From assembly GCF_964355755.1 (NCBI RefSeq), contig NC_092672.1, positions 32,794,501-32,858,500 on the forward strand: 64,000 nt of DNA. The letters are read 5' to 3'. The stretch comes from Antedon mediterranea (Eukaryota; Echinodermata; Crinoidea; Comatulida; Antedonidae). Below are positions 1,356 to 34,690 of the stretch, piece after piece. A program made the translations under genes and the position numbers. Below the pieces are notes generated by a model. The model saw only the letters and a program-made list of their open reading frames with translations, made no database searches and was not told the origin of the DNA. Position 1 is the first letter of the stretch; each line of letters begins with the position of its first letter.

Positions 1356-2703
1356 CGCCCGGCCAGAGGTGAGAGAGCGTATGCTCCTTGATGTATCGTT
1401 GAGGGTGTTAATGGCAGGCACAATTGTGTTACCGTATTATGTATATACACATTATTTATAAGTACGTTTATTAATATTGTTGTGTGCTGTAGTGTCCTGA
1501 CTCTAACGCATTATTAAAATATTTTTTTGTTAGTACATGCCGCCCTAGCTAGGCTAGGCAACACTGAATACTAAATATTAGGATTCCCAATAAAATGAAT
1601 AAAGGTGGATTTTCTCTAATGTAGTAATAACGCTTATAACAGGCCAGGCCTAGTTAGGGGTATTTGAGCTTGTATCATATACAGTAAATAAACAATTCAT
1701 TTGTATTTATACCTACCAACGGGTCTATAATTGGAGTGCAACTATGATAATTGATGGACGGGATAAGCAAATGTATTTATTGATAGGAATGGAAGCACAA
1801 ATTATAATATTAAGGTAACAGATACTGAGCATTGCTATTTTAAACTGATCAAACCTACATAATACATTATACTAAATTATTATTTTGTTTTGAGGGCAGA
1901 TAAACATGTGCTTATTCATTTTCATTTTTTCAGGTGAATAGAAAGAAAGATGCCCAGCGTACTTTATAATAGATGCTACTTGGATCATGCTTGCACGATA
2001 CATTTATGCAGTATACCAAGACACCAAGTATAGAATGAGCGCAGACAATTAAAATTACAGAACTAAATATTTATGAAGAATACTAGTAAAATATGCATAA
2101 TAGTCATACTGTAACTATGGTAATGTACTACCAGACAGTACACTAGTAGCAGTGCATCATATAGTGTTTGTTTTTAACCATCTAAATGGGTCTGGGTATA
2201 TAAACAAATAAACCACTACTGTACTTCTTTTTTTATTTATTTAGCCAAATACTATGTACAATGGACATTTATGAAAGAATCCATCTCTTGAATATGATGG
2301 AGCTGGCTGGTGTAGATAGAATTAAAATGTATCACTCAGGTCTCAAATGTAATTTATGTCCCGTTTGAAAAATCCTGCTTGTAGACAGGTTCCATTTCTC
2401 AAAAAACGGCCTAGAAAACGAATCAAGAAGCATTTTTGGGTAGAAGCTGGGATCCACTTGATTTAGGATATTTCGACCTCACTGATTACGAATATGGCGG
2501 ATCCCAAGCGAAATTCGGCCATCTAAGCCCTTAATTTGCATAATTAAAAATGGCGGCCATTTTTTATAATTACCCTATATCTCGAGAACCACTAGTCACA
2601 GATAATTAATTTTGGTTTCAAAATGTTTTAAATATATGTTTTTATATTCACTTTAATGACACATTTTCTCAAAAAATGGATGCAAGTCTTATTTCTGACA
2701 TTT

Positions 2704-2716
2704 TGACCTTTGACCT
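2704..2716. promoter_or_regulatory. Perfect DR1 nuclear-receptor-type motif in fold-back arm
   Basis: TGACCTTTGACCT is the reverse complement of AGGTCAAAGGTCA, a direct repeat of the AGGTCA half-site with one spacer base. The same 13 bases recur at 5983-5995, 32797-32809, 34353-34365, 36360-36372 and 38564-38576, once in every arm of the three fold-back elements. Whether any receptor binds is unknown. Confidence 0.4.
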
Positions 2717-3105
2717 TGATTTATCGTATCTCAGTAACCAATAATCGGAGAGACACGAAATAGGGCTCAAATTGTTCAGAAACTATACATTCATATTTAT
2801 TATAATGAAATGTTTTTACAAAAAATGGCCGATTCTACAACTATTGACCTTTGAACTATTAGTCAAATATAAAAATATAATAATAATATAACTTTGAAAA
2901 TTGTGGTCTTATGAATTTTGTTTTTGTTTTAAATTGTTTAAAACATGTGTGTTTCTATCCAGTCTAATGGCACATTTTGTACAAGAATAGCCGATAGTAT
3001 GGTTATTGACCTTTAAACTACAGCATAGGCCTACTGTATACTAAATATAATTGCATATCTATGAAATTATTTATACACAATAATAATTAGTAAAATTATA
3101 AAATT

Positions 3106-3660
3106 CACTGCCATCAAATATGATGTATTATGATTTATATAGATTTAAAAAAATTTGAACACGCAAGTTACATTTGTTGAAATTTGAAATTACCTGCCAT
3201 CAATATGATGGAGTATGATTATAGATTTTTTTTAATGTGAACATGTCAGCTACATTTGGAAATTACCTGCCATCAATATGATGGATTATGATTATAGATT
3301 TAAAAAAGAATTTGAACACGTAAGCTACATTTGAAAATTACCTGCACCATCAATATGATAGATTATGATTATAGATTTAAAAAAAGAATTGTAGCACGTC
3401 AGCTACATTTGGAAATTTGGAAATTACCTGCTATCAATATGATGGATTATGATTGTATAGATTTAAAAGAAAATGTGGACACGTAAGCTACATTTGAAAA
3501 TTACCTGCCATCAATATGATGGATTATGATTATAGATTTAAAAAAGAATTTGAACACGTCAGCTACATTTGGAAATTACCTGCCATCAATATGATGGATT
3601 ATGATTGTATAGGTTTGAAAGAAAATGTGAACACGTAAGCTACATTTGGAATGAACATGT
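3106..3660. repeat. Tandem array of about 75 bp units, left arm of copy 1
   Basis: Roughly seven units are each built on TACCTGCCATCAATATGATGG, then an A/T-rich stretch, then AACACGTAAGCTACATTTG or GTCAGCTACATTTG. Each unit contains the small palindrome CCATCAATATGATGG. The array is repeated in inverted orientation at 5130-5690 and again in copy 2 at 33430-33960. Confidence 0.75.
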
Positions 3661-3668
3661 TAAGGGCA

Positions 3669-4690
3669 TCAGTTTTGATCATTCATGCAAAGGTTTCCGT
3701 CATCTTTAGCGTTGTTACAGCGGCATAAAGCTGTACATGGTAGTTTTGACTTCTTGCACCTACATCTATTGGTTATGCATCGTGTTTTGCGTCCACAATA
3801 AATCATCTCTAACGAAAGAGTAGGAATAGCTTCATTTTTCAGAAGCACTGGTTGAAGTTTACCATTAGATAGCTCCCAACCAAAATCTGTTGGTGATGGC
3901 AAATGCTGGATATTGGCGATACAGCTTTTTTCCATACGAGTGCTTGGAAGTGTGCTCTTTTTATATGTTGGTGCACTGCATAGCTTGTTGGAGGTAATGC
4001 CCCTGGTTTGTTTTTTTTTAAACATGGCATGCCAAACTTCATTGGTACTTTTAACTTGACCAACACCGTAAACGTAACAAATGAATCTTTCCGATTTCAT
4101 AATAACTTGGTCACTGATAGGTTTCTCCCAGGTCTTTAATTAGTTCATAATTTTTGTTTAATACTTCCCATGCCGATGCCTTTGAGTGACCACTTAGATA
4201 TGAGCAGGGAAGAGTTAAATTACTGTATGTATGTATTAATGTAATTTAACTCTTCCCTGGATATGAGGTAGTATCGCATCCACTAATAGTGTGGAATGGA
4301 ATCAGTGCTTTTGCAGAACCATCCGGCAAGGCTTGAAAAATGTCTTTTATAGATACTTTCTTTTTTTGGATGTCCCTGTCATCATCCATTTGGATACCAT
4401 GCTTTGGTAGTGAGACACTAGAATCACTAGTACGTCTGTATCCCTAGAAGCAACTACAACTGTGTCGTATCGGACATTGGCAGCATGACAAGTCGCGTGT
4501 CCGCTTCTTCATGATCTGCTACCAGAGACAACGTATTCGTGTAGACTTTTGATGATTTAACAACTGATTCTTCCATAAATCCACCAGCTGTGACAATTTC
4601 TTTGTCTATAGGAGCTTGGCAAATCAACTCCTCTGATAGAAATCGTGCCAGATCTGCTTTATTTTCTTGTAATGCCAAAAAGTTCGACCA
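3669..4690 (-). pseudogene. Core of an Academ-like transposase, disrupted
   Basis: Read on the minus strand from 4690 down, the order is: ENKADLARFLSEEL; HEEADTR; then after a frameshift near 4490 VVVASRDTDVLVIL; then HTISGCDTTSY (interrupted by the 55 bp insert at 4205-4259); then a 143-codon open stretch ending in an eight-cysteine motif (C-x5-C-x4-C-x-C-x6-C-x3-C-x-C-x9-C) and a stop at 3669. The acidic series EEAD / DTD / GCD is laid out like the metal-binding residues of FEN1/XPG-type PIN nucleases. An XPG-like nuclease and a Cys8 finger are features I recall for Academ elements. The gene is inactive: one frameshift, one insertion and no N-terminal half. Confidence 0.6.
4205..4259. mobile_element. 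55 bp hAT-like micro-MITE with perfect 8 bp target duplication
   Basis: CAGGGAAGAGTTAAATTAC (4205-4223) and its exact reverse complement (4241-4259) enclose a 17 bp loop. GATATGAG flanks it on both sides (4197-4204 and 4260-4267). CAGGG...CCCTG termini and an 8 bp duplication are hallmarks of hAT transposons. Removing the 55 bp and one GATATGAG rejoins the host transposase frame between the codons of GCDTTSY and LSGHSKA, which confirms a clean insertion. Confidence 0.85.
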
Positions 4691-4749
4691 GCAATTTGGC
4701 TGGCTGTGTTTTGGTTCATCTTTGTCTGGTGGTGTCCTTTATCGACAGT

Positions 4750-5121
4750 TTTAAGTTAGGCATGCCATGTTTTAAAAAAAAACAAAACCAGAGGCATACC
4801 TCCAACAAGCTATGCAGTGCACCAGCATATAAAAAGAGCACACTTCCAATCACTCGTATGGAAAAAAGCTGTATCGTCAATCCAGCATTTGCCATTACCA
4901 ACATATTTTGGTTGGGAGCTATCTAATGGTAAACTTCAACCAGTGCTTCTGAAAAATGAAGCTATTCCTACTTCGTTAGAGATGATTTATTGTGGATGCA
5001 AGACACGATGCATAACCATATAGATGTAGGTGCAAGAAGTCAAAACTACCATATACAGCTTTATGCTGCTGTAGCAAAGGCTAAAGATGACGGAAACCTT
5101 TGCATGAATGATCAAAACTGA
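4750..5121 (+). pseudogene. Inverted duplicate of the transposase C-terminus
   Basis: From about 4752 the plus strand repeats, with substitutions and small indels, the coding sequence found on the minus strand from 4044 down to 3669. It includes CAATCACTCGTATGGAAAAA-type coding, a NGKLQPVLLKNEAIP block and part of the cysteine motif. Frameshifts break it. It belongs to the right arm of the fold-back element and explains the several short overlapping ORFs seen here. Confidence 0.65.
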
Positions 5122-5129
5122 TGCCCTTA

Positions 5130-5690
5130 ACATGTTCATTCCAAATGTAGCTTACGTGTTCACATTTTCTTTCAAACCTATACAATCATAATCCATCATA
5201 TTGATGGCAGGTAATTTCCAAATTTCCAAATGTAGCTGACGTGTTCAAATTGTTTTTTAAATCTATAATCATAATCCATCATATTGATGGCAGGTAATTT
5301 TCAAATGTAGCTTACGTGTTCACATCTTTAAAAATCTATAATCATAATCCATCATATTGATGGCAGGTAATTTTCAAATGTAGCTTACGTGTTCACATTT
5401 TCTTTCAAACCTATACAATCATAATCCATCATATTGATAGCAGGTAATTTCCAAATTTCCAAATGTAGCTGACGTGTTCAAATTCTTTTTTAAATCTATA
5501 ATCATAATCCATCATATTGATGGCAGGTAATTTCCAAATGTTGCTGACATGTTCACATCTTTAAAAATCTATAATCATACTCCATCATATTGATAGCAGG
5601 TAATTTCCAAATGTAACTTGCATGTTCATTTTTTTTTAAATCTACATAAATCATAATACATCATATTTGATGGCAGTGAATTTTATAATT
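5130..5690. repeat. Tandem array of about 75 bp units, right arm of copy 1
   Basis: This is the inverted counterpart of the array at 3106-3660, with units centred on CCATCATATTGATGGCAGG and separated by AGCTGACGTGTTC or AGCTTACGTGTTC. Units differ by point changes and short deletions. Confidence 0.75.
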
Positions 5691-7425
5691 TTACTAAATT
5701 ATTATTGTGTATAAATAATTTCATAGTTATGCAATTATATTATATTTATTATACAGTAGGTCTATGCTGTAGTTCAAAGGTCAATAACCATATGTCATAA
5801 GACCAACATTTTCAGAGTTATATTATTATATTTGACTAATAGTTCAAAGGTCAATAGTTGTAGAATCGGCCATTTTTTTGTAAAAACATTTCATTATAAT
5901 AAATATGAATGTATAGTTTCTGAACAATTTGAGCCCTATTTCGTGTCTCTCCGATTATTGGTTACTGAGATACGATAAATCAAGGTCAAAGGTCAAAATG
6001 TCATAAATAAGATTTGCATCCATTTTTTGAGAAAATGTGTCATTAAAGTGAATATAAAAACATATATTTAAAACATTTTGACACCAAAATAAATTATCTG
6101 TGACTAGTGGTTCTCGAGATATAAGGTAATTATAAAAAATGGCCGCCATTTTTAATTATGCAAATTAAGGGCTTAGATGGCCGAATTTCGCTTGGGATCC
6201 GCAATATTCGTAATCAGCGAGGTCGAAATATCCTAAATCAAGTGGATCCCAGCTTCTACCCAAAAATGCTTCTTGCACCATATTTCAGAGGAAATAGAAC
6301 TTGTCTATTGTTCCAAACTCATTATGATACATTTGTTCAATAAAATTACTTCCACACACTATTTCTGCCATATAATTTGTTGATGTTTACAATTTTATTA
6401 CTAGTACTATTACAGTTCTTCAAAGCCATCTCATGTACTGTTGATTCCATAAATCTGCAAAGATAAGACCAATAAATGGATGGAAATGTACTATTATTTT
6501 TATTCAATCCTACCTAGGCCCTATAGTATTATATTTTATGACTTGGTAACAAACAGAAAGAGGTTATTATTTAATTACAGTTACTAACTAAACTATAATA
6601 ATCCTCTCTGCCTCACCTCTGCTCTACTTTAATTATTAGTATTATTATAATATACTGTATTACTATATTATTATTAGTCAATAACAAGTCAGAGCCAAAA
6701 ACAAGTTCAACACAAGCTTACCTTTTTTATTTACGTCGCCTTTTACATACGTCTACGCCCGCGCCTTGTCCACTTCCTGGAGGTTCATCGGTGGACCGGC
6801 GACTACTACTCTCTTGTACTGTAGGCCATGGAGTAACTCCATGTGTAGGCCTGGCCTGGCCTAGCCTAGTAGTATATTACTAGCGAATTTAGAAGAAACT
6901 ATAGTCTACTAGACCTAGCCTAATTTGTAGTCTGCGTGAGTGGTTTAGTGTGAGATGTACAAATACACACTTTCTTCTTTTCACGTACAATCTTTGCAGA
7001 CATAACTTTTTATTGATTTGTGAAATATCGATATTTTCTACGACTGCAGCAACAGGGAGCTTGCAACACGTGAGTCTCGTGTAGGATGGGTTTGTTTATT
7101 TTGTTTACACCACACAGTCCGCGAACGAGACAAGGCGGTGATTGGACTGTATTAAAATTCATTAACCAATCACAAAACGACTGCTGCCGTGGCTACAACC
7201 CCGGGTGTTTCAAACTCTAAATTTGACGATCTCGTACGTGCGTATAGAACGTTCATAAAAATTAAGATGGCGTGGCAGTTAGTCGGCCATTTTGCGGACG
7301 TTTTATACCAAAATTTAATTTGTTTATTTCTCAAGTTCTACTAGGTATTTGAATCTAATTTTTTGTGTGCTGTTTATTAACATTAAAAGGATTCATACAA
7401 AGTCATTTTTGTGAAATTTTAAAAT

Positions 7426-7446: not shown

Positions 7447-10057
7447 TATGGGGAATTTTTAACCCCCCTTCGTCAAAATTGTTAAGCATGACTTTTCTTT
7501 TGACTTTATCGGGTTTTCCGTTCCATATAAATTTAAAAATTTTACTTTGAATATCTTGAAGGAAACAATCGGGTGGGTCTGGTAAATTTGAGAAAACATA
7601 CGTGAATATCGGGAGAAACAGTGACTTAATAATAGTTGCTTTTCCAAACAAAGTAGGCCTAAGTGAGCGTTGTTTCCACATATTTAATACTTGTTCAGCA
7701 TTTTTAGCCTTATTTGGAAAATTGAGTCTGAAAATATCATTAAAATTACAAGAAATATTAACACCCAAGTATTTTACTGGGCCTTTGGTCCATGAAATAC
7801 TTTTCTCAGATGGCGTTTTATAGTCGCAGTTTCTTAACGATCCTATTCTCATAATGTTACTTTTTTCATAATTAATTCTGAGTCCAGAATATATAGAAAA
7901 TTCATCCAGTATATCTATAATCGGTTTAATTGAGTTTTGGTCTTTGAGAAAAAACACAGTGTCATCTGCAAATTGGCTAATTCTTATGTCTACATTATTG
8001 TACTCTATACCTTTAAATGTGTCTGATTGACGTACCATGTTACCTAGTGTTTCTGCACAAATTATAAAAAGATATGGGGATAAGGGACATCCTTGACGCA
8101 GGCCTCGTTTTAAATTGAAGAATTTTGATGTTACCCCGTTATTTATAACGCAACTAACAATGTCTTTATATAATATTTTTATCCAATTTATCATATTTTT
8201 ACCAAAGCCAAATCTCTTAAGAGACATATCAAGGAAGTCCCATTTCACCTTATCGAAAGCCTTTTCGAAATCTACAAAAAATAGTAAGTTTGGCTTGTTG
8301 TGCATTTCTGCATATTCTATTACATCATAGACTAATCTTATGTTTTCTCCAATATATCTGCCTTTAAGAAAGCCCGTTTGATCAGGATTAATTACTGATG
8401 GCAGCACACATTTTAAACGAGTCGCAATGGCTTTTGCTAAAATTTTATAATCCACATTTAAAAGCGAGATGGGACGCCAGTTTTTCAATAATAGCGGAGA
8501 TTTATCTTTTTTCGGTATAAGTGATATCACCCCTCGTTTCTGGGAGATACTTAAAAACCCGGATTGGAAAGAATAATGGTAAGCGTTAATTAGCGTATCT
8601 TTTATATCATTCCAAAATAGTTTATAAAACTCGGCAGGAAAACCATCTGTCCCAGGGGTTTTATTGTTATCCATCGCCTTTAATGCTTCTAAACATTCTG
8701 TATCTCTAAGGGGCTGGTCACATATAGATTCATCATCTTTATTGATTTTATCTATGTGTATCTTGTCAAAAATATCAGCAGGGTTGACATTGTTATTTTC
8801 GCCTTCAAAACTATATAATGATTCATAGAATCGTTTTTCTTCATTTATTATATCGTCGGGGTTAGTTATGTCTCCATTATCTGTTGTAATTTTAGTTATA
8901 TGCTTTTTATTATAATTCCTCCTCTCTAAATTAAGAAAATATTTCGTGCTTTTTTCTCCTTCTTCTATCCAACGGGCTTTGGATCGAATCAGTGAGCCAC
9001 GTGTTCTAATTTCATAGATTGATTCTAGTTCGTTTCTTTTAATTTGGATCATTTCGGTTATTTTTTCATTACTGTTTACGCAATATTGCTCTTCTAAGGT
9101 TTTGATTTCATTGTTTAATCGATCCACGTCTTTTTTAATTGTTTTATTTAGTCTACCAGAATACGACATTGATGTTCTCCTTGTATTACATTTTATCATT
9201 TCCCATACAGTATGTGGGTTATTTTCTAAACATTCTTCTTTTGTGTTTTTTATGGTTTCTTTAATTTCTTTAACGTATTGTGGGTCACTTAAAAGGCTTG
9301 TATTCAGTTTCCAGAAACCTGACCCTCGTTTACTTGTTATTCCATGTATTGATAACGTAATCAATGAATGGTCACTTTTAAAACCCGGTGATATTAAAGT
9401 TTTTTCAACTTGAGACCAAAGTTCATAGGATATAAGAAAATAATCTAACCTACAGAACACTTTTGGAGATTGATTGGAGTGCCATGTAAATTGGGTTTTA
9501 GTTGGATTTTTCTGTCTCCAGATGTCAATTAAATTATAATTGTCTTTTATACTATTTATTTGTTCTACAGATCTCGGGTGAATTTGACCTCTTCCATTTT
9601 TCTTATCCAGATCAGGTTCAAGAATTGTATTAAAATCTCCGCCTATTATTAGAGAGTACTGTGCGAACTCCTCAATTTTATTATTAAATTGTTCAAAAAA
9701 GAAACTGTTGTCATCATTTGGTCCATATAAATTTGCAATTGTAATATGTTTATCCTCTATTTGTATATTCATAATAATAAATTTCCCATTTTGATCATTG
9801 TATATGTTTCCTATTTTGTAGCTGACATTTAATTTTAAGAGAATACAGACTCCAGCCGAATTATTCTTTCCATTGCTAAATTTAATCTCAGAACCCCAGT
9901 CATTACGCCACGCAGTTTCCAGCTCATGTGTGCAGTGGGTTTCTTGTAGGAGATATATGGAGAAGGGTTGATCCCTTAGCCAATTAAATACGGTGCTGCG
10001 TTTAAAAGGGTTTCTAAGCCCCCGTACATTTAAACTACATATATCTATGCTACCCAT
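7447..10057 (-). pseudogene. Tx1/L1-like LINE ORF2: endonuclease and reverse transcriptase, split by the TTAA element
   Basis: This non-LTR retrotransposon ORF is intact up to the insertion. The N-terminal part (residues 1 to about 235) is an apurinic-type endonuclease with SLNVRGLRN, LLQETH, GGDFN and SDHSL motifs. The reverse transcriptase follows with PGTDGFPAEFYK, RPISLLNVDYK, FFVDFEKAFDKV, GLRQGCPLSPYLF and the catalytic FADD box. After GGLKIPHIK the reading enters the inserted element and stops within a few codons at 7430. The true continuation is at 253-1. No ORF1 is visible upstream of 10057, so this copy is probably 5' truncated. With no other stop or frameshift in about 950 codons, the copy looks young when it was hit. 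Confidence 0.9.
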
Positions 10058-11193: not shown

Positions 11194-11910
11194 ATGCTAC
11201 CAAAAAGAAACTTAGACTGGAACGAATATCTCTTTCAAGAACCAGTAGATCCTAGACCAATTGAGAAGAAGGTGTCGTTCCGTCTAGAACCAATTACAAC
11301 GAACACCAGCGGGGGTCCATCTGCGTCCACAGTATCCACTCGTCCAGGCGATACTCCATCGGGAAAGCTACGATTTGGACCAATAGAACGATCAAGAATT
11401 AAAGAATTACGTAACTATAACGCATCAACAATGTTGAAAAACTTCCAACTGCCTTTAGTTTTCAGAAAGCAATTTTATCAGAACTATCCGTCAGGATTTC
11501 TCCCGCCTATTCAAAAAGTGGTTCCAGATTGCCAGCGTGCGTCTAGGTGGCGCGCGCCATTTTCAAAATCATCAAAAGTTGTCAGTATCCCGCCAGTTGA
11601 GAGAAGGGCTACTGGATTCAAAAGTTTAAAATGCCGATTAGAAGCAAAGGGTGTGCACGTGAGCGCGCCCAAATTAGAAAATATAGAAAAATCAGACTAT
11701 AGAAAATCGGACAAGAAGGCAGACGATAAGAAAGCAGAAGATAAGGCAGAAGATAAGAAAGCAGAAGATAAAAAAGTAGACGAGAAGGCAGACAATAAAA
11801 AGGCAGAAGATAGGAAACTAGACGGCAAGAAGGCAGACGATAAGAAAGCAGACGATAAGAAGGCAGACGATAAGGCAGGAGATAAGAAAGCAGACGATAC
11901 GAAGGCATGA
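11194..11910 (+). CDS. Unrecognised 238-residue basic protein with KADDKK-type repeat tail
   Basis: The open reading frame starts at an ATG in the context TTCATGCTACC. I do not recognise the family. Residues 1 to about 165 look like a genuine non-repetitive protein, rich in Pro, Arg and aromatic residues (for example FQLPLVFRKQFYQNYPSGFLPP near residues 83-103). There is no signal peptide and no membrane segment. Residues about 168-238 are almost only Lys, Asp, Ala and Glu in KADDKKAEDKK-like units, predicted highly charged and either helical or disordered. A poly(A) signal follows at 11969. The gene converges on CSTF1. It could be a cytoskeletal or ciliary protein, but nothing in the sequence proves that. 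Confidence 0.65.
   Translation: MLPKRNLDWNEYLFQEPVDPRPIEKKVSFRLEPITTNTSGGPSASTVSTRPGDTPSGKLRFGPIERSRIKELRNYNASTMLKNFQLPLVFRKQFYQNYPSGFLPPIQKVVPDCQRASRWRAPFSKSSKVVSIPPVERRATGFKSLKCRLEAKGVHVSAPKLENIEKSDYRKSDKKADDKKAEDKAEDKKAEDKKVDEKADNKKAEDRKLDGKKADDKKADDKKADDKAGDKKADDTKA
11698..11906 (+). repeat. Coding minisatellite of 12-15 bp units
   Basis: Repeats of GACGATAAGAAAGCA and variants in multiples of three encode the KADDKK tail of the 238-residue protein. The pure Lys/Asp/Ala/Glu content also keeps the reverse frames open, producing spurious Ser/Leu-rich ORFs on the minus strand. Confidence 0.85.
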
Positions 11911-32345: not shown

Positions 32346-33219
32346 AGGAGGACCCCAAACAACATCAACTGCTTATCATCATGTCTCAAGAAAACGTCCG
32401 AGGGTATTGTACTTTTTTTACACAGCAGATACGGTGATTCTATTGTAGTGAAATGATAAACATTATTACACTACAAATCTATATTAGACAAGTTCTATTT
32501 CCTCTGAAATATGATGTAAGAAGCATTTTTGGGTAGAAGCTGGGATCCACTTGATTAAGGATATTTCGACCTCGCTGATTATGAATATGGCGGATCCCAA
32601 GCGAAATTCGGCCATCTAAGCCCTTAATTTGCATAATTAAAAATGGCGGCCATTTTTTATAATTACCCTATATCTCGAGAACCACTAGTCACAGATAATT
32701 AATTTTGGTGTCAAAATGTTTTAAATATATGTTTTTATATTCACTTTAATGACACATTTTCTCAAAAAATGGATGCAAGTCTTATTTCTGATATTTTGAC
32801 CTTTGACCTTGATTTATCGTATCTCAGTAACCAATAATCGGAGAGACACGAAATAGGGCTCAAATTGTTCAGAAACTATACATTCTTATTTATTATAATG
32901 AAATGTTTTTACAAAAAATGGCCGATTCTACAACTATTGACCTTTGAACTATTAGTCAAATATAATAATATAATAATAATATAACTTTGAAAATTGTGGT
33001 CTTATGAATTTTTTTTTCTTTTTACATTGTTTAAAACATGTGTGTTTCTATACAGTCTAATGGCACATTTTGTACAAGAATGGCCGATAGTATGGTTATT
33101 GACCTTTTAACTACAGCATAGGCCTACTGTATACTGAATATAATATAATTGCATAACTATGAAATTATTTATACTCAATAATAATTAGTAAAATTATAAA
33201 ATTCACTGCCATCAAATAT

Positions 33220-33426
33220 GTGATATCTAATGGTAAACTTCAACCGGTGCTTCTGAAAAATGAAGCTATTCCTACTGCTTCGTTAGAGATGATTTATTGT
33301 GGATGCAAGACACGATACATAACCAATAAATGTAGGTGCAAGAAGTCAAAACTACCATGTACAGCTTTATGCTGCTGTAACAACGCTAAAGATGACGGAA
33401 ACCTTTGCATGAATGATCTTAACTGA
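33220..33426 (+). pseudogene. C-terminal fragment of the Academ-like transposase
   Basis: An open stretch begins SNGKLQPVLLKNEAIP and runs through the eight-cysteine motif (all eight Cys present, with one extra from Arg-to-Cys) to a stop. It matches the C-terminus at 3669-3870. Nothing upstream is kept in this copy. Confidence 0.7.
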
Positions 33427-33429
33427 TGC

Positions 33430-33960
33430 CCTTAACATGTTCATTCCAAATGTAGCTTACGTACGTGTTCACATTTTCTTTTAAATCTATACAATCATAA
33501 TCCATCATATTGATGGCAAGTAATTTTCAAATGTAGCTTACGTGTTCAAATTCTTTTTTAAATCTATAATCATAATCCATCATATTGATGGCAGGTACTA
33601 TACAATCATAATCCATCATATTGGTGGCAGGTAATTTCCAAATTTCCAAATGTAGCTGACGTGTTCAAATTCTTTTTTAAATCTATAATCATAATCCATC
33701 ATATTGATGGCAGGTAATTTTCTAATGTAGCTTACGTGTTCAAATTCTTATTTAAATCTATAATCATAATCCATCATATTGATGGCAGGTAATTTCCAAA
33801 TGTAGCTGACATGTTCACATTTTAGAAAATCTATAAGCACACTCCATCATATTGATGGCAGGTAATTTCAAATTTCAAATTTCAAAAAATGTAACTTGCG
33901 TATTCAAATTCCTTTTTAAATCTATATAAATCATAACACATCATATTTGATGGCAGTGAA
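33430..33960. repeat. Tandem array of about 75 bp units, copy 2
   Basis: Same unit as at 5130-5690, with CCATCATATTGATGGCAGG cores. About six units, one truncated. Confidence 0.75.
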
Positions 33961-34690
33961 TTTTATAATTTTACTAATTATTATTGTGTATAAATAATTT
34001 CATAGTTATGCAATTATATTATATTTAGTATACAGTAGGCCTATGCTGTAGTTAAAAGGTCAATAACCATACTATCGGCCATTCTTGTACAAAATATTCC
34101 ATTAGACTGGATAGAAACACACATGTTTTAAACAATTTAAAAAGAAAAAAAAATTCATAAGACCACAATTTTCAAAGTTATATTATTATTATATTATTAT
34201 ATTTGACTAATAGTTCAAAGGTCAATAGTTGTAGAATCGGCCATTTTTTGTAAAAACATTTCATTATAATAAATATGAATGTATAGTTTCTGAACAATTT
34301 GAGCCCTATTTCGTGTCTCTCCGATTATTGGTTACTGAGATACGATAAATCAAGGTCAAAGGTCAAAATGTCAGAAATACGACTTGCATCAATTTTTTGA
34401 GAAAAAGTGTCATTAAAGTGAATATAAAAACATATATTTAAAACATTTTGACACCAAAATTAATTATCTGTGACTAGTGGTTCTCGAGATATAGGGTAAT
34501 TATAAAAAATGGCCGCCATTTTTAATTATGCAAATTAAGGGCTTAGATGGCCGAATTTCGCTTGGGATCCGCCATATTCGTAATCAGCGAGGTCGAAATA
34601 TCATAAATCAAGTGGATCCCAGCTTCTACCCAAAAATGCTTCTTGATTCGTTTTCTAGGCCGTTTTTTGAGAAATGGAACCTGTCTATAT

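Follow-up and report, generated by a model that had tools for sequence, protein, structure and literature searches.

A complete hairpin transposon in the window

We analysed 64,000 bp of the Antedon mediterranea genome (contig NC_092672.1, positions 32,794,501 to 32,858,500; hereafter the window, with positions counted from its first base). At 2382-6307 lies a complete transposon of 3926 bp, flanked on both sides by the 3-bp target site duplication (TSD) TTG and built with long inverted arms. It is very probably a non-autonomous, mobile hairpin derivative of a nuclease-bearing, AcademX-type DNA transposon, born in one founding event. The element reads TAGACAGG...CTTGTCTA between its TTG flanks, starting at 2382 with TAGACAGGTTCC and ending at 6307 with AGAACTTGTCTA. 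Its features, and a second copy further along the window, are given below; parent coordinates (A) are those of an intact relative, L046, found in the same genome.

2379-2381: target site duplication TTG, left copy (flank comparison)
2382-6307, plus strand: complete Academ-like fold-back (hairpin) element of 3926 bp, non-autonomous (arms, copy survey, parent mapping)
2382-2423, plus strand: 5' terminal 42 bp, of the autonomous 5'-end type and not the 3'-end type (diagnostic bases)
2424-2880, plus strand: left terminal inverted repeat (TIR); diagnostic sites of 5' type to element position ~375, mostly of 3' type inward
3100-3651, minus strand: left copy of the tandem array, inverted, ~75-85-bp units (parent 6044-6490 reversed)
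3669-4039, minus strand: C-terminal coding sequence in inverted orientation, left-arm copy; covers parent codons ~1425-1547 and includes the eight-cysteine motif
4040-4752, minus strand: centre, present once; relic of the XPG/FEN1-like core, from parent bases 4952-5655 (codons ~1190-1425)
4205-4259: 55-bp palindromic insertion, CAGGGAAGAG...CTCTTCCCTG, with an 8-bp flanking duplication, GATATGAG
4752-4753: founding junction, where inverted sequence ending at parent base 4952 meets forward sequence starting at parent base 5656
4753-5121, plus strand: C-terminal coding sequence in forward orientation, right-arm copy; covers parent codons ~1425-1547 at 94% identity to the parent
5139-5684, plus strand: right copy of the tandem array
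5818-6275, plus strand: right terminal inverted repeat
6276-6307, plus strand: 3' terminus of the autonomous type, ...GGAAATAGAACTTGTCTA
6308-6310: target site duplication TTG, right copy
32485-34687, minus strand: second hairpin copy of the same family, internally deleted (2203 bp), TSD TAT

The outermost parts of the arms (2424-2825 and 5874-6275) are 98% complementary, and further blocks continue inward to 3912-4022 and 4771-4881. In a gapped self-alignment, the outer block spans 458 columns at 98% and the inner one 1,072 columns at 90.6%. Each arm carries an array of ~75-85-bp units (3100-3651 and 5139-5684), and the whole has the layout of foldback-type elements: long inverted arms that contain tandem repeats and enclose a shorter centre. 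In the minimum-energy RNA fold, 84% of the left 1,600 bases pair with the other arm, the first base of the element with the last. The left coding copy corresponds to A5656-6026 (element bases 1288-1658) and is 94% identical to the parent. Between the arms, the single-copy coding centre of 713 bp (4040-4752) carries the motifs HEEADTR, DTDV and GCDTT; it is frameshifted and lacks the first two catalytic Asp regions of the predicted nuclease. The 55-bp palindrome within it resembles a tiny hAT-type miniature inverted-repeat transposable element nested within the hairpin. A preliminary description of this DNA had placed the element between the same two bases, which proved exact, and had proposed C-terminal coding sequence and tandem array present twice in inverted orientation around a centre of about 700 bp, with hairpin arms of ~1.6 kb; all of this is borne out.

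An intact parent in the same genome

A search of the genome from which the window comes (354 Mb in 18 contigs) found two parent-type elements of 7.1 kb, L046 (7158 bp, TSD AGA) and L047 (7110 bp, TSD TAC), which are 98.6% identical over their full length and 99% over aligned blocks. L046 holds a single uninterrupted open reading frame (ORF) of 1547 codons (element bases 1383-6026); that of L047 is broken. L046 has TIRs of ~0.5 kb (94% identity); after its stop codon and before the 3' TIR comes a tandem array built of 75-bp units. Neither L046 nor L047 has a fold-back or long inverted arms, only the ~0.5-kb TIRs. The N-terminal half of the ORF has just three long matches in the genome. The HEEADTR, DTDV and GCDTT motifs of the minus-strand relic in the window copy align to the 1547-codon frame of L046.

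Mapped onto this parent, the window copy begins with the 5' terminus and TIR, continues as inverted parent sequence, taking in the array and then C-terminal coding sequence, as far as A4952, and then jumps to A5656, from which it runs forward to the 3' end. The sequence at this centre junction shows no microhomology. In the left arm, diagnostic sites are of the 5' type at positions 7-375 and mostly of the 3' type from ~402 inward, so that the switch lies within the TIR itself. At TIR positions 145-375, 5'-type bases occupy both hairpin arms, which points to conversion between the arms or to a change in the parent lineage and blurs the exact switch point. The left end is therefore not a plain copied 3' end, a possibility that the 5' diagnostic terminus rules out. 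The earlier idea that the element had duplicated its own 3' half is supported, with a refinement: the 3' half is present again in inverted orientation, but the left end keeps the true 5' terminus with its 42 diagnostic bases.

The same scheme holds across the family. We mapped 20 hairpin derivatives against the parent, and the mapped hairpins keep the true parental 5' and 3' termini. Codons ~1425-1547, with the eight-cysteine motif, are present twice, codons ~1190-1425 once, and codons 1-1190 are absent; thus, the protein cannot be encoded by any hairpin copy.

One origin, then spread

The junction between parent bases 4952 and 5656 is common to 19 of the 20 mapped hairpins, with L048 within 3 bp, and the stretch is deleted in L030. 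The shared junction means one founding event, with amplification after it. A 201-bp junction probe detects at least 40 loci on many contigs, counting only the best candidates, which were the ones scored. The 5' terminus, searched as a 35-mer with up to 3 mismatches, occurs 88 times in the genome (none for the reversed control), and 62 of these termini have a match to the core coding sequence within 6 kb.

Complete elements number 27 in our TSD sample: 25 hairpins, the window copy included, plus L046 and L047. Their TSDs are 3 bp long in 26 cases and 4 bp in one (24 and one when hairpins alone are counted), and their 250-bp left flanks show no match to one another. The hairpin form has thus transposed repeatedly as a unit, with target duplications of 3-4 bp. 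Several hairpin groups are internally 99.8-100% identical, which points to recent transposition. Among the mapped hairpins, the 55-bp palindrome is missing only from L048 and from copies that are deleted there; L048, which also differs by ~5% from all other hairpins, is therefore the earliest branch sampled.

Other details of the family emerged along the way. The second hairpin copy in the window lies in opposite orientation, 26 kb from the element at 2382-6307. In the right arm, ~0.9 kb of L011 and L028 and ~0.5 kb of L005-L007 do not map to the parent; these pieces are private subfamily insertions, mobilised along with the hairpins.

How the hairpin may have formed

To explain this structure, we propose that the founding event was the aberrant repair of a gap left after excision. 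The repair strand would have copied the 5' TIR and then switched, via TIR homology, to the inverted 3' TIR, from which it would have run inward for ~2.2 kb, copying the array and C-terminal coding sequence on the way. The end of this inward-copied strand would then have been joined to the end of a second one, copied from the genuine 3' end, with no microhomology between them. Once formed, hairpins would rely for their movement on protein supplied in trans by the few intact copies. Their spread is probably due to the retention of both ends and to the subterminal array, which formerly stood at one end and now stands at both; by analogy with Mutator-like elements (MULEs) with tandem TIRs, a second array may allow more transposase to bind.

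The intact parent, the retention of both parental termini, the switch within the TIR, the shared 4952/5656 junction and the repeated transposition of the hairpin form are shown by the sequences themselves. Several points nevertheless weigh against the full scenario. We infer the gap-repair route, and recombination after a nested inverted insertion, or a TIR-TIR exchange between sister copies, could yield the same end product. The exact point of the 5'-to-3' switch is blurred by the conversion or lineage change mentioned above. Shared termini and TSDs suggest, at the level of sequence, that L046 could supply the protein in trans, and the benefit of the arrays for transposition is argued from Galileo and from the tandem-TIR MULEs.

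The nested insertion deserves a closer look. Here, one copy would have landed inside another in the opposite orientation, and the hairpin would be what subsequent deletions and recombination left. The family is multi-copy, and this very window contains two of its copies in opposite orientation at a distance of 26 kb. However, within the TIR the left arm changes from 5' to 3' type without a break, with no internal 3' terminus and no duplicated target bases; the centre junction directly joins two internal points of the coding sequence; and the early branch L048 has no internal terminus either. We therefore regard a nested origin as unlikely, and gap repair with a template switch remains our preferred explanation.

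A brake on the parent?

A different kind of question is what the hairpins do. Read-through transcription of a hairpin would give double-stranded RNA (dsRNA) covering the parental 3' coding sequence, array and TIR, and small RNAs made from it might silence the autonomous copies, much as the Mu killer locus does in maize. The family would then be a self-spreading repressor, or would have been retained for taming its parent. The predicted fold, in which 84% of the first 1,600 bases find partners in the other arm, fits this idea, as do the parental 21-mers found exactly in the sampled hairpins (71% for the duplicated coding part, 57% for the single-copy centre), the presence of Piwi/Argonaute exons at about five genomic loci and the very small number of intact autonomous copies. 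Yet hairpins have multiplied recently, so the parent cannot have been entirely silent then, and this spread argues against complete silencing. Moreover, sense read-through alone from Mu killer accompanied a failure of silencing (PMC3440606), and scarce autonomous copies are usual for DNA transposons. On balance, such a role, in either version, seems doubtful to us. Slightly more doubtful again is the stronger analogy, in which the family would be a transposition-competent counterpart of Mu killer in Academ, spreading by means of the parent's enzyme while feeding dsRNA into the silencing of that same parent.

Assignment to Academ

The Academ superfamily and its nuclease-encoding AcademX lineage are reportedly due to Kapitonov and Jurka and, as cited in PMC10045372, to Kojima 2020. 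AcademX elements make TSDs of 3-4 bp (PMC10045372).

We compared the proteins of four families of this genome, L046, L055, L056 and L057, the last being 29% identical to L046. The residues D1144, D1187, E1284/E1285/D1287, D1308/D1310 and D1367 (L046 numbering) are invariant in these four, in the order found in FEN1, and are kept almost throughout nine domains from several families. A profile of the nine domains searched against PDB gave six matches, five of them to EXO1, a FEN1/XPG-family nuclease (best E = 0.013, a weak score), in two collinear segments at the VFD...SKKEVERSRR and GCD sites; a four-domain profile gave four matches, all to EXO1, at E = 0.1 or worse. Aligned by hhalign to an archaeal FEN1 profile of 49 sequences (collected with a FEN1 query and confirmed by tblastn), the domain scored 23.8, just above the maximum of 23.7 among 200 column shuffles, in a register that sets DTDV on QDYDS and GCDTTS on GTDYNP. 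The C-terminal finger of L046 reads CxCx3Cx4CxCx6Cx3CxC. A Pfam scan of the four families places CXC/TCR at the C-terminus (best E 0.009 among members) and DUF6589 centrally (best E 9.6e-7); it shows no helicase domain, in contrast to AcademH.

Other searches returned little. The intact 1547-codon protein had no phmmer match in PDB, a single distant Academ protein matched only HDAC6 there (E 1.5), and Pfam searches with the nuclease domain gave scattered weak matches in which no XPG family was named. Conversely, Pfam XPG_I found host nuclease exons in the genome and no transposase, and no relatives were found in viral contigs, by single protein or by alignment.

Because of the ordered acidic motifs, the collinear EXO1/FEN1 matches, the eight cysteines and the 3-4-bp TSD, we file the parent as AcademX. 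The evidence fits a nuclease-type Academ with a putative FEN1/XPG fold, which upholds the Academ-like relic with FEN1/XPG-type core and Cys8 domain of the preliminary description; the profile search that it had recommended for the core leads to EXO1, if only weakly. Could the parent belong to another superfamily and be merely Academ-like? The weak fold signal (EXO1 at E = 0.013, FEN1 barely above the 200 shuffles) leaves a little room for this. Still, the FEN1-like order of acidic residues in nine domains from several families, a Cys8/CXC-like C-terminus and a TSD of the length reported for AcademX (PMC10045372) make it very improbable.

Least credible of all is a one-off rearrangement or assembly artefact of the window copy, for which we found no supporting evidence: the copy survey, with the junction at no fewer than 40 loci on many contigs, distinct subfamilies, private indels and independent TSDs, rules it out. 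In this respect, the earlier test of the hairpin had set two conditions together, arms absent from intact relatives and a unique copy; the intact relatives do have no more than ~0.5-kb TIRs, but the copy belongs to an amplified family.

Further Academ-like families (L055, L056, L057, L111 and L112) have uninterrupted frames of ~1,250-1,555 codons, are 26-40% identical to one another and in some cases exist in two near-identical copies. Judging from these frames, Academ elements with the potential for activity seem plentiful in this genome.

Elsewhere in the window, a long interspersed nuclear element (LINE) reverse transcriptase fragment is suggested by eye at ~7490-8000 on the minus strand (FADD-like motif), and 11713-11907 holds a 15/42-bp tandem repeat, AAGAAAGCAGACGAT, that probably encodes a Lys/Ala/Asp-rich repeat.

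A coding fold-back among known systems

As far as we found, this is the first coding fold-back family described for Academ, and its parent, founding junction and daughter subfamilies all lie within one genome. It thus makes testable how DNA transposons gain long inverted arms, since TIR-mediated template switching should leave the very 5'-to-3' switch seen here. It also makes testable whether hairpins owe their spread to the additional terminal arrays or serve as RNA-based brakes on the parent.

With AcademX, the family shares 3-4-bp TSDs, ordered XPG/FEN1-type acidic motifs, an eight-cysteine C-terminus, a protein of >1,200 amino acids and TIRs; the present hairpins differ in their ~1.6-kb arms with C-terminal coding sequence and a duplicated tandem array. 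The preliminary description called such a fold-back unfamiliar for the superfamily. We found none for Academ in the literature searched, a search that left the key Academ paper outside, but precedents exist elsewhere, and non-autonomous fold-backs with sequence recruited into their arms are already known in general.

Foldback and Tetris of Drosophila also have long inverted arms of tandem repeats and are apparently non-autonomous (PMC4079207); here, in contrast, the arms contain transposase coding sequence and an autonomous parent is identified in the same genome. In tomato MULEs with multiple TIRs, duplicated terminal sequence goes with a higher copy number than in single-TIR forms, and it was argued that the extra terminal sequence may bind more transposase (PMC3310237). 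That duplication is tandem and not an inversion of internal sequence, in another superfamily. Mu killer, a derivative of MuDR in maize, is a partial inverted duplication of a transposase gene with TIRs and a predicted hairpin RNA (PMC3440606), and parent mapping reveals the same feature here, part of the transposase gene being inversely duplicated together with TIRs. However, Mu killer is a single dominant locus read through from a flanking gene (PMC3440606), whereas the present element is mobile and multi-copy.

A further parallel is Galileo, a Drosophila element of the P superfamily. According to PMC3573991, non-TIR sequence was recruited there in inverted orientation, lengthening the TIR, and the authors discuss recombination after breaks. 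The likeness extends to long TIRs with internal tandem repeats and to spreading non-autonomous copies (PMC3573991). Besides belonging to another superfamily, Galileo recruits the TIR-adjacent F1/F2 segments, as that text describes, whereas the inverted piece of the crinoid hairpins reaches ~1 kb into coding sequence and goes back to a single founding event. Galileo is thus a direct precedent for internal sequence recruited into longer arms.
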